DNA of 64,000 nt from Pseudomonas protegens CHA0 (GTDB taxonomy: Bacteria > Pseudomonadota > Gammaproteobacteria > Pseudomonadales > Pseudomonadaceae): NCBI RefSeq assembly GCF_000397205.1, contig NC_021237.1:5897001-5961000 (forward strand). The letters run 5' to 3'. Under the pieces are notes generated by a model that did no database searches, was not told the origin of the DNA, and saw only the letters and a program-made list of their open reading frames with translations. Shown here piece after piece: positions 58,678-61,299 of the stretch. Each line of letters opens with the position of its first letter. Within the stretch, counting starts at the first letter, position 1. A program made the position numbers and the translations under genes.

Positions 58678-59946
58678 GTGGCACTCCCCGCTCAGATCTA
58701 CCGCCCGATGCCCAGCCAAGACCCTCTGCTGCTCCGTCACCATCGTCCGTTCATCGCGTTCTGGCTGGCGCGGATCTTTACCGCCAGCGGCTTCCAGATG
58801 CTCACCGTGGCCATTGGCTGGAACCTCTACCAACTGACCGGCAATGTGCTGGACCTGGGTCTGGTGGGGCTGGTGGAATTCGCCCCGCGGGTGCTGTTCA
58901 TGCTGCACACCGGGCATGTGGCCGACCGCTACGACCGGCGCCGGGTGGCGGCTATCTGCCAGTCGCTGCAAGCCCTGATCGCCCTGGCCCTGGCCGTCGG
59001 CAGCCTGACCGACAGCGTCACCCGGGAAATGATCTTCATTCTGGCCTTCCTGCTCGGCGGCGCCCGCTCCTTCGAAATGCCCACCACCCAGGCCCTGCTT
59101 CCGAGCATCGTGCCCGCGGCGCTGTTTCCCCGGGCGGTGGCCGCCGCGCAATCGGCGCAGCAGTCGGCGACCATCGTCGCCCCGGCCCTGGGCGGTTTGC
59201 TGTACGCCTTCGGCAGCGTCTGGGTCTACGGCCCCACCGTGGTCCTGTACCTGATCGCCTGCCTGCTGATGCTCAACCTGCCGGCCCGGCAGACCCCGTT
59301 GAACAAGGGCAAGGCCACCCTCGATTCGCTGCTGGCGGGCATCCGCTTCATCCGTAGCCGCCCGGACATCCTCGGCGCCATCTCCCTGGACCTGTTCGCG
59401 GTATTGCTGGGTGGCGCCACCGCGCTGCTGCCGGTGTTCGCCAAGGACATCCTGCTCACCGGCCCCTGGGGCCTGGGGCTGCTGCGTTCGGCGCCAGCGG
59501 TGGGGGCCTTGCTGATGTCCCTGTGGCTGGCGCGTTTTAGCGTCGAGCGCAAGGTCGGGCGGGTGATGTTCACCGCGGTCGGGGTGTTTGGCGTGGCCAC
59601 CATCGCCTTCGGCCTCTCGACTTCGTTCTGGTTTTCCCTGGCGGTGCTGGTGGTGCTGGGGGCGGCGGACATGATCAGCATGGTGATCCGCGCCTCTTTC
59701 GTGCAACTGGAAACCCCGGACGAAATGCGCGGCCGGGTCAGCGCGGTGAACGGCCTGTTCATCGGCGCTTCGAATCAGTTGGGGGAGTTCGAATCCGGGC
59801 TGACCGCCCACTGGTTCGGCACGGTGCCGGCGGTGGTGCTGGGCGGGGTCGGCACGCTGCTGGTGACCGGCGTCTGGATCAAGCTGTTCCCGACCCTGGC
59901 CCAGCGCGATCGGATGATCGAACGGCTCGAGCAACCCAAGGCCTGA
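58678..59946 (+). CDS. MFS-family exporter (EntS/MFS_3-like)
   Basis: A membrane protein of 422 aa with 12 helices. The segment RPFIAFWLARIFTASGFQML, the loop motif GHVADRYDRRRVAAI between helices 2 and 3, and ARSFEMPTTQALLPSIVP fit the EntS/MFS_3 group, whose members often export siderophores or drugs. The substrate here is unknown; no siderophore genes are near. It starts with GTG at 58678; ATG 58708 is an alternative. The DUF6124-like gene converges 34 nt after its stop. Confidence 0.85.
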   Translation: MALPAQIYRPMPSQDPLLLRHHRPFIAFWLARIFTASGFQMLTVAIGWNLYQLTGNVLDLGLVGLVEFAPRVLFMLHTGHVADRYDRRRVAAICQSLQALIALALAVGSLTDSVTREMIFILAFLLGGARSFEMPTTQALLPSIVPAALFPRAVAAAQSAQQSATIVAPALGGLLYAFGSVWVYGPTVVLYLIACLLMLNLPARQTPLNKGKATLDSLLAGIRFIRSRPDILGAISLDLFAVLLGGATALLPVFAKDILLTGPWGLGLLRSAPAVGALLMSLWLARFSVERKVGRVMFTAVGVFGVATIAFGLSTSFWFSLAVLVVLGAADMISMVIRASFVQLETPDEMRGRVSAVNGLFIGASNQLGEFESGLTAHWFGTVPAVVLGGVGTLLVTGVWIKLFPTLAQRDRMIERLEQPKA

Positions 59947-59980: not shown

Positions 59981-60277
59981 TCAGTGGCTGGGCTGAGCTT
60001 CAGCAGCGGCTCGCCATTTCGCCGCCTCCAGCAGGTCGCAACCATCCTGCGTCAGTACATAGAGCACGTCGATGATGTGCGGGATGTCCTTCACATCGCC
60101 GTGGCTGAAATTCAGGCAGCAGAGGGTTTCCAGCAGATTGGCAGCCGTGCGCATGCGTTGCTCGGCGGCTTCGTGCAGCGCCTCAGGGGAGGCATTGGCG
60201 TTGATAAAAAACACACCTGGCCGGCTTATGTTGGATTTAAGCGGCACATAGTGAGCAGCAGTTTCCGGGGTATTCAT
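59981..60277 (-). CDS. Small DUF6124/DUF3077-like protein
   Basis: A soluble protein of 98 aa, MNTPETAAHYVPLKSNISRP..., with a helical core (ASPEALHEAAEQRMRTAANL and a second half DGCDLLEAAKWRAAAEAQPS) that resembles the DUF6124/DUF3077 family of small Pseudomonas proteins. It has two adjacent cysteines (ETLCCLNFSHGD). I chose ATG 60277, 7 nt after AAGGA; ATG 60280 is one codon upstream, and a longer frame from 60397 runs through the leader hairpins and is unlikely. The family has no known function. The long hairpin-rich leader and its promoter are listed separately. Confidence 0.7.
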   Translation of the reverse strand: MNTPETAAHYVPLKSNISRPGVFFINANASPEALHEAAEQRMRTAANLLETLCCLNFSHGDVKDIPHIIDVLYVLTQDGCDLLEAAKWRAAAEAQPSH

Positions 60278-60505
60278 CATTAGATCCTTCTTTATGAATG
60301 ACCGCCCCAATCGTGACCAAACGATGGGTGGCGGACTGTGCACAGGTTGGTCAACCGGGAAGAAGGCACCCGGCACACCCGAAGGTGTCCCGCGCACAGC
60401 CCACCATTAAGCGTGCGGACACGAAAAAGTGCCTGCAAACCAGGGTGGCGCGTGCGCCTTCTAATTTCGGGTGACCAAACCCGGCCGCTGAATTGGCAGC
60501 GACGG
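60278..60505 (-). promoter_or_regulatory. Candidate structured 5' leader RNA of the DUF6124/DUF3077-like gene
   Basis: The leader of about 225 nt folds by eye into at least six hairpins. H6 (60468-60483) has stem CGGGT/ACCCG, and H1 (60302-60334) has inner stem ATCGT/ACGAT inside CCGCC/GGCGG; both enclose the same hexaloop, TTGGTC on the RNA strand. H2 (60345-60356) carries GACCAA, complementary to those loops. H3 (60371-60392) has a 9-bp stem with a UUCG tetraloop, H4 (about 60411-60438) a U-rich loop, and H5 (60447-60458) a GGCG/CGCC stem. This could be a regulatory RNA, possibly with kissing loops. Confidence 0.6.
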
Positions 60506-60510
60506 CGCGA

Positions 60511-60540
60511 ACTATAGGGGTGATGGGACGGGCGGTGCAA
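60511..60540 (-). promoter_or_regulatory. Promoter of the DUF6124/DUF3077-like gene and its leader
   Basis: On the minus strand TTGCAC (60540-60535), an 18-bp spacer and TATAGT (60516-60511). It is a good sigma-70 match and sets the likely transcription start near 60504. Confidence 0.65.
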
Positions 60541-60714: not shown

Positions 60715-60993
60715 ATGATCAAGTCCTTTCAGCACAAAGGCCTGCGCGCCTTCTATGAAACCGGATCGACTCGTGGAATACGGGCCGAGCATGCACGCCG
60801 GTTGGCCCGCCAACTGTCGTTCATGGATCACGCCAGCGAACCGGCAGACCTCAATCTGCCGGGCTGGCGGCTGCACCCGCTCAGGGGCGACCTGCTTGGC
60901 TACTGGTCCCTGGTAGTGTCCGGCAACTGGCGAGTGATCTTTCGTTTCGTAGGTTCGGATATCGAGCTGGTGGATTATCTGGACTACCACTGA
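60715..60993 (+). CDS. higB: HigB-type toxin of a type II toxin-antitoxin system
   Basis: A RelE/HigB-superfamily mRNA interferase of 92 aa that would cleave mRNA on the ribosome. It begins MIKSFQHKGLRAFYETGSTR, and its active region has LPGWRLHPLRGDLLGYWSL, VSGNWRVIFRFVGSDIELV and the C-terminal DYLDYH with His. This matches the HigB group found next to HigA. The toxin gene comes before the antitoxin gene, the usual order for higBA. A perfect inverted repeat precedes it. The pair is probably horizontally mobile. Confidence 0.92.
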   Translation: MIKSFQHKGLRAFYETGSTRGIRAEHARRLARQLSFMDHASEPADLNLPGWRLHPLRGDLLGYWSLVVSGNWRVIFRFVGSDIELVDYLDYH

Positions 60994-61008
60994 ACAGGAG
61001 GCAGGATC

Positions 61009-61299
61009 ATGCCCATCCACAACCCGCCCCACCCCGGTGACACCCTGCGCCTGGATATCTTGCCCGAAATGGGCATCAGCGTGACGGAGCTCGCGCGGCA
61101 TATCGGCTACGCCCGCCCGCACCTGTCCAAGGTGTTGAACGGCCATGCGCCGATCCGTGCGGAACTGGCGGTCAAGCTGGAACGCGCCGGAATCGGCAAG
61201 GCCAAGGTCTGGCTGGCGGTACAGGCCGATTACGACATCTGGCACACAGAGCAGGAACTGCAACCGCTGATCGAGCCCATCGCGGCCCATGGCGACTGA
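61009..61299 (+). CDS. higA: HigA-type antitoxin (XRE-family regulator)
   Basis: An antitoxin of 96 aa with a central helix-turn-helix (ISVTELARHIGYARPHLSKV then LNGHAPI) and the HigA start HNPPHPGDTLRLDILPEMG. It should neutralise HigB and repress the operon through the repeat at 60685. It starts 15 nt after higB with AGGAGG-like spacing (CAGGAGGCAGGATC upstream) and ends 3 nt from the convergent DJ-1-like gene. Confidence 0.92.
   Translation: MPIHNPPHPGDTLRLDILPEMGISVTELARHIGYARPHLSKVLNGHAPIRAELAVKLERAGIGKAKVWLAVQADYDIWHTEQELQPLIEPIAAHGD

Follow-up and report, generated by a model that had tools for sequence, protein, structure and literature searches.

A C4 antisense RNA in the leader of a small Pseudomonas gene and its apparently insulated set of paralogous units

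A C4 unit in the leader of a 99-aa gene

What kind of element is the long, hairpin-rich leader of a small gene of Pseudomonas protegens CHA0, in which two unrelated stems carry the same hexaloop and another segment spells the complement of that loop? The initial annotation of the window (i.e., the whole 64-kb stretch of DNA analyzed here) had assigned it to no named RNA family. Rfam does name the family: the 64-kb window contains exactly two matches at the gathering thresholds, the C4 antisense RNA (RF01695) and c4-a1b1 (RF03163), and both lie in the minus-strand leader of the 99-aa gene, in the order and on the strand expected for C4 and its a1b1 target. At the Rfam gathering score, the window holds no match to isrK (RF01394). 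The parts of the unit, in transcript order, are as follows.

60535 to 60540, minus strand: -35-like TTGCAC, read from the sequence; a like motif pair occurs in relatives' leaders, and a consensus scan does not list it
60511 to 60516, minus strand: -10-like TATAGT after an 18-nt spacer, inside the 5' end of the RF03163 match
60464 to 60517, minus strand: c4-a1b1 (RF03163), the upstream target of C4; 49.6 bits against a gathering score of 46.7, E 1.6e-9, model positions 1 to 53 of 53
60468 to 60483, minus strand: a1 hairpin (CGGGU-UUGGUC-ACCCG), with a UUGGUC loop
60454 to 60462, minus strand: b1, which pairs with b' (GTGCCTTCT, one G-U)
60415 to 60436, minus strand: hairpin with a U-rich loop in the predicted fold, between a1b1 and C4
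60324 to 60411, minus strand: C4 antisense RNA (RF01695); 75.1 bits against a gathering score of 45, E 7.7e-13, model positions 1 to 87 of 87 (full length)
60360 to 60369, minus strand: b' element of C4 (GTGCCTTCTT)
60347 to 60353, minus strand: a' element of C4, sequence TGACCAA, which the predicted fold leaves unpaired
60310 to 60325, minus strand: a2 hairpin (AUCGU-UUGGUC-ACGAU), with a UUGGUC loop
60286 to 60292, minus strand: b2 (AAGAAGG), which overlaps the ribosome-binding site (it contains the AAGG of that site); its partner in b' is CCTTCTT
59981 to 60280, minus strand: 99-aa gene, opening with two adjacent ATGs (the first at 60280)

The complementary runs in the window are 7 nt for a'/a1 and 9 nt for b'/b1 at the upstream target (site 1), and 7 nt for a'/a2 and 7 nt for b'/b2 at the downstream one (site 2), where b2 lies at the ribosome-binding site of the 99-aa gene; the b'/b2 run is the third-lowest among the 12 own-genome units described below. 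The two UUGGUC hexaloops noted previously on unrelated stems are confirmed on the minus strand (60483-60468 and 60325-60310) and correspond to targets a1 and a2. GACCAA, which had been described as the loop of a third hairpin, does complement them and belongs to a' of C4, but it forms no hairpin loop in the predicted fold; it lies in an unpaired C4 linker, where the alignment consensus draws a weak 2-bp stem. Pairing of the loops with a complementary element, suggested as possible kissing, is indeed the point of the unit, although two elements pair (a and b), not one: b' and its partners b1 and b2, which had been overlooked, constitute the second, and this one covers the ribosome-binding site. 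The UUCG hairpin exists as well and is now identified as P2 of C4. As an observation, the initial annotation was essentially right and is partly confirmed, and its interpretation is partly supported.

The promoter that had been called good (TTGCAC-18-TATAGT) is present as a sequence, but it has 8 of 12 consensus bases by hand count, with the -35 box contributing 3, and it is omitted by a consensus scan that requires 4/6 per box and 9/12 overall. In the leaders of two further genomes (G010 and G019), a TTGCGC-like/N16-18/TA-like pair occurs in 70 of 77 cases, whereas 20 mononucleotide shuffles average 28.5. A terminator-like hairpin at the a1b1-C4 gap is found in only 11 of 89 paralogues and is lacking in the window copy. 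The predicted fold of the whole leader (-104.5 kcal/mol, z = -4.24) was equaled by 1 of 200 dinucleotide shuffles.

The 265-nt leader is kept in loci L252 to L255 with 0, 1, 1, and 5 differences. Two strains, Pseudomonas sp. PH1b and P. protegens 14B2, encode proteins 100% identical to the window protein (among 79 relatives), and over 265 nt their leaders are 0 and 1 bases off the window, respectively. These close orthologues are near-identical and hence display conservation, not covariation. Directly upstream of the putative C4 promoter, and divergent from it, lie genes for a HigB-like toxin and a HigA antitoxin (window 60715-61299, plus strand). The next gene beyond the unit (58678-59946, opposite strand) resembles MFS transporters only below the NCBIfam cut-offs.

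Pairing codes in three genomes

The window's own genome (G000) has 14 C4 matches, all above the cut-off, and 17 a1b1 matches, of which 7 are above the cut-off and 5 have no adjoining C4 match. Twelve of the 14 C4s entered the pairing test (the tandem pair at 1162583 and 1162749, with no evident gene, was left out), and the site-1 window of unit 4801295 was placed by hand, since this unit has no a1b1 match. Complementary runs of at least 6 weighted pairs were found for a'/a1, a'/a2, b'/b1, and b'/b2 in the 12 units, and for each of the four pairings 0 of 100,000 partner permutations reached the cognate sum. When a and b scores were summed, the cognate target was the unique best in 12/12 units at site 1 and in 11/12 at site 2. 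An earlier energy matrix with a shorter site-1 window gave 0/100,000 permutations for site 2 and 5,196/100,000 for site 1; site 1 appeared weak there because the window cut off b1, and longer windows were used for the retest.

Among 150 candidates scored in each of the two further genomes, C4 matches numbered 36 in G010 (35 above the cut-off) and 42 in G019 (41 above). All 42 G019 units and 35 G010 units (a partial match was left out) were fetched, and G010 units L244 and L246 were dropped for want of an anchor. The 42 units of G019 carry 42 distinct a'/b' codes, while the 33 anchored units among the 35 fetched from G010 carry 32, two units sharing one. In each of the two genomes, the mean for cognate pairs was above that for non-cognate pairs at site 1 and site 2 alike (0/20,000 permutations in every test). 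The cognate was the unique best site-2 target in 33/42 units (G019) and 27/33 units (G010), and the unique best site-1 target, with a broad window, in 24/42 and 21/33 units, respectively. Since these counts fall below the totals, the insulation is strong and not complete. Nearly every unit in the three genomes has its own a'/b' code, as part of a putative insulated multi-copy antisense network.

The search for copies across Pseudomonas was successful, and the C4 body covaries strongly, with compensatory changes at 14 of 24 consensus pairs among 41 C4s. The view that the loops are selected and the stems need only pair is borne out as well. The same loop on different stems recurs in 81 of the 87 paralogues examined (i.e., a1 and a2 each sit in a hairpin of 4 bp or more, and their 5' arms differ), by a lenient test that random positions pass 53% of the time.

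How fast do these codes change? In G010 and G019, 19 within-genome pairs of units encode proteins that are at least 90% identical, with mean identities of 96% for the protein and 92% for the coding DNA; the same 19 pairs average 84% in the C4 body, 80% in a', and 37% in b' without gaps (70% with gaps). Both cognate scores exceeded both cross scores in 18 of the 19 pairs. Units L176, L220, L236, L246, L248, and L249, of the 77 fetched, have no ORF of at least 45 aa and were left out of this comparison. The a'/b' codes thus seem to change faster than the genes they guard, which is an indication, not proof, of selection for insulation, because members are shared between pairs, the protein sequences stop where the fetched locus ends, and coding identity may have been raised by gene conversion.

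Genes downstream of C4 and their phage context

The gene in the window had been described as DUF6124/DUF3077-like. Its product has no Pfam match even at an E value of 1 and, within the limits applied, none in NCBIfam, PHROGs, or PADLOC, and hhalign gave probabilities of 0.4% against DUF6124 (profile A5) and, for a related window-type profile (A6), 1.6% against DUF3077 (E 0.032, 65 columns). Against other window-type genes, in contrast, the window family scored 99.96% (two sequences are common to both profiles), and the own-genome window-type members were also recovered by protein search. Profile comparison would therefore place the window protein with the window-type genes and not demonstrably with DUF6124 or DUF3077. 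DUF3077 (PF11275) and DUF6124 (PF19619) match one another (hhalign 87%, E 3.8e-6), and both share a similar layout with the window-type proteins. An AlphaFold model from a family of 46 sequences shows short strands and a two-helix hairpin (pLDDT 81.8, pTM 0.72); a structure search with it returned no informative match.

C4 is widespread in the genus, with a match in 275 of 298 Pseudomonas genomes (274 above the cut-off) in a survey that counted at most the best 14 per genome, compared with 17 of 273 other genomes drawn from the class. DUF6124 was present in 78 and DUF3077 in 76 of 99 Pseudomonas genomes; the seven C4-less genomes among these 99 (G013, G020, G027, G028, G041, G068, and G093) have neither, but the converse fails, as several genomes with C4 are without DUF6124. 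Among loci picked as the best-scoring protein matches, which is no random draw, a C4 at the Rfam cut-off lies upstream on the same strand in 17/20 DUF3077, 11/20 DUF6124, and 11/20 window-type loci. With our own, looser C4 model (R1; E values no higher than 0.01, scores as low as 25.8 bits), a C4 lies directly upstream on the same strand in 28/30, 20/30, and 21/30 such loci, respectively, and in 52 of the 79 named-genome relatives of the window protein. The candidate targets of C4 would thus be small DUF3077, DUF6124, or window-type genes, and, judging from the matches, soil Pseudomonas can carry dozens of such putative units ahead of small genes. C4 is now linked to a third, unnamed family as well as to two Pfam families that have no assigned function.

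Several loci depart from the simple arrangement. At L331:4598-5273, one C4 is followed by a DUF6124-like gene and a window-type gene at a viral contig end. A TwoAYGGAY RNA (RF01731; L117:1072-1191, minus strand) adjoins a C4-DUF6124 unit. The tandem C4s at 1162583 and 1162749 (G000:C1:1162583-1162835, plus strand), with no evident gene, converge on C4 unit 1163294, and L325 and L326 show a similar tandem pair on the opposite strand, near a gene.

For the remaining 27 of the 79 relatives, R1 places no C4 immediately ahead of the gene. At L068, the closest sister locus, a1, b1, and the gene are retained and C4 and a2 have been lost. Taken with these relatives, L068 indicates that C4 is dispensable for keeping the gene; taken with the five own-genome a1b1 matches without C4, it indicates that the gene outlives its C4. 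In L068, upstream of 1785 (minus strand), a TGACCAA beside the ribosome-binding site complements the locus's own a1 loop, which may be due to chance.

Searches of 50,697 phage records with four proteins gave 0 matches, and plasmid records gave 0 and 1 match for two proteins. The notion that these genes are absent from phages was overturned by IMG/VR, where C4s precede related genes. We obtained 86 C4 matches in 80 viral loci and set aside three that were weak or cut. Of the 83 used, 62 are followed by a related gene or leader ORF (blastp at 1e-3; some of the matches are weak), and 14 of the other 21 show an ORF that by eye starts like DUF6124 proteins. The viral set consists of 80 of the 119 stretches that match a Pseudomonas C4 sequence pattern and therefore says nothing about other phage C4s. 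In five viral contigs inspected more closely, the neighborhood of the units includes integrase, primase, or DNA polymerase genes or a CI-like S24 repressor gene. The window-type protein gave nine viral matches, none farther than about 2.6 kb from the end of its contig, and these may be host flank; viral contigs searched with DUF3077 and DUF6124 proteins yielded none.

C4 units occur in early regions of Pseudomonas prophage-like contigs and in a P4-like element. The latter (G000:C1:5742000-5757000, L459) contains, in the window's own genome, an integrase, AlpA, a C4, a 52-aa ORF, a 94-aa ORF, DUF3077, and a DUF927 primase-like gene. Its unit (5748146) sits between the integrase/AlpA pair and the DUF927 primase-like gene, the position that the CI immunity RNA occupies in P4. 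The solitary chromosomal units may derive from such modules. A more specific reading, which we rate as somewhat less likely than not, is that C4-gene units are phage or satellite immunity modules turned self-insulating chromosomal cassettes, with the a'/b' code driven apart after each duplication. If so, divergence would keep resident C4s from silencing a new copy, much as P1 and P7 are heteroimmune, and Pseudomonas genomes would each hold natural antisense switches by the dozen, orthogonal to one another and quicker to evolve than the proteins under their control.

Proposed mode of action and its alternatives

With family membership, both pairings, covariation, and the multi-copy link with small genes directly established, the leader is very probably a C4 antisense RNA unit, in which C4 would act in trans on a2/b2 and block translation of the gene. 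A single transcript from the putative promoter would comprise a1/b1, C4, a2/b2 at the ribosome-binding site, and the gene. RNase P would presumably cut C4 (an RNA of about 77 nt) out of it, by analogy with the P1 and Acinetobacter baumannii precedents. In the freed C4, acting in trans, the unpaired a' would pair with the a2 loop and the b' loop with b2 and the Shine-Dalgarno sequence, which would block ribosome entry. The a1/b1 pair has the same code and would probably serve as a second C4-binding target or as a decoy. For the window, the most likely outcome is that C4, once processed, binds a2/b2 and keeps the 99-aa gene from being translated.

The available parts of the literature describe the biology of C4 in P1/P7 (PMC5320573, PMC8198154, and PMC12197685), including processing by RNase P and occlusion of the ribosome-binding site by b' (PMC5320573). 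The P1/P7 C4 unit (RF01695; immI operon) resembles the units described here in RNA fold, a'/b' elements, upstream a1b1, and a second target located at the ribosome-binding site of the gene that follows. Unlike immI (c4-icd-ant), the window unit has a small orphan protein downstream and no icd or antirepressor gene, and the Pseudomonas units are mostly solitary, chromosomal, numerous per genome, and largely insulated. In A. baumannii, the C4-like Group 1 small RNAs (21 similar sequences in one genome) likewise form a large chromosomal group, apparently processed from longer transcripts; their targets are left open in the part of that report available (PMC5320573), whereas the units described here each come with an a1b1 and an a2b2 of their own next to a gene. 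P4 CI RNA with seqA/seqC and the Gifsy-1 IsrK-orf45-anrP arrangement also feature, in the portion of PMC4825925 available, an antisense RNA cut from a leader with matching sequences up- and downstream. This likeness extends to own-genome unit 5748146 in the P4-like element, but CI works by transcription termination, according to the same portion (PMC4825925). DUF3077 and DUF6124 genes have the same kind of leader as the window gene, whose protein matches neither by profile.

One alternative is a unit of the type I toxin-antitoxin kind, with the small protein as the toxin and C4 as the RNA that counteracts it, which would explain multi-copy insulation and the decay of orphans. A small gene under cognate antisense control in many copies fits this idea, as does the P1 C4 operon, which includes icd, whose product inhibits cell division (PMC8198154, in the part available). 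Genes that persist without C4 (L068 and others) would be unexpected for a strong toxin, however, and four proteins of these units have no PADLOC match, so that we consider a toxin unlikely, if worth keeping in mind.

Another reading dispenses with a free antisense RNA: the loops and GACCAA would act within one transcript, by kissing or alternative folds, as an attenuator-like device acting only in cis. Parts of the family do show features of this kind. A run scoring at least 7 between the C4 3' arm and the stretch after a2 occurs in 29 of 89 units, compared with 3.3% of shuffles, and the permutations that reach the cognate sum for this pairing number 272 (own genome), 0 (G019), and 6 (G010) per 5,000. 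The Shine-Dalgarno sequence is inside a perfect hairpin in 42 of 89 units (shuffle mean, 5.7; maximum, 11; 100 shuffles). The window copy, however, has no Shine-Dalgarno hairpin, and its 3' arm match is only 5 nt. The available texts also list P1/P7 C4 as trans-acting (PMC12197685) and report A. baumannii C4-like regions that are far richer in reads than the upstream part of the transcript (PMC5320573). We therefore regard a purely cis-acting device as quite improbable; the arm pairing and Shine-Dalgarno hairpins suggest alternative folds atop the antisense mechanism in part of the family.

It is also conceivable that C4s chiefly control other units, orphan leaders, or incoming phages and not their own gene. 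The 5 of 17 own-genome a1b1 matches without a neighboring C4, the tandem pair at G000:1162583 and 1162749 without an evident gene, and the code common to two of 33 G010 units point in this direction. Against it, the cognate is the unique best target in 12/12 (site 1) and 11/12 (site 2) own-genome units, and near-identical paralogues carry different codes; this makes control directed mainly elsewhere very unlikely. Chance hairpins in a GC-rich leader, for which GC content alone speaks, along with the leniency of a hairpin test that random positions pass about half of the time, are already refuted by curated covariance models above cut-off and by 0/100,000 permutations; the fold z score of -4.24 also speaks against them.

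The window thus holds a member of an established RNA family in surroundings that have hardly been described (i.e., a putatively insulated multi-copy antisense network before small genes). C4 and c4-a1b1 motifs both appear in a table of Weinberg 2010, in the part available. In the literature consulted on C4 RNA/c4-a1b1 and DUF3077/DUF6124, C4 is tied to none of these genes, and insulated C4 codes are not described. C4 RNAs outside P1/P7 now gain concrete candidate targets, and two bare DUFs become candidates for phage- or satellite-derived control functions. These sets, with as many as 42 predicted units in a single genome, also offer a natural system for the direct measurement of RNA specificity, cross-talk, and code evolution. 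In three loci (L021:785-943, L024:773-844, and L033:780-878), short ORFs ending in GGAQ or GGAR are located at the start site under leader control and share an ATGA overlap with the following gene, which suggests translational coupling.
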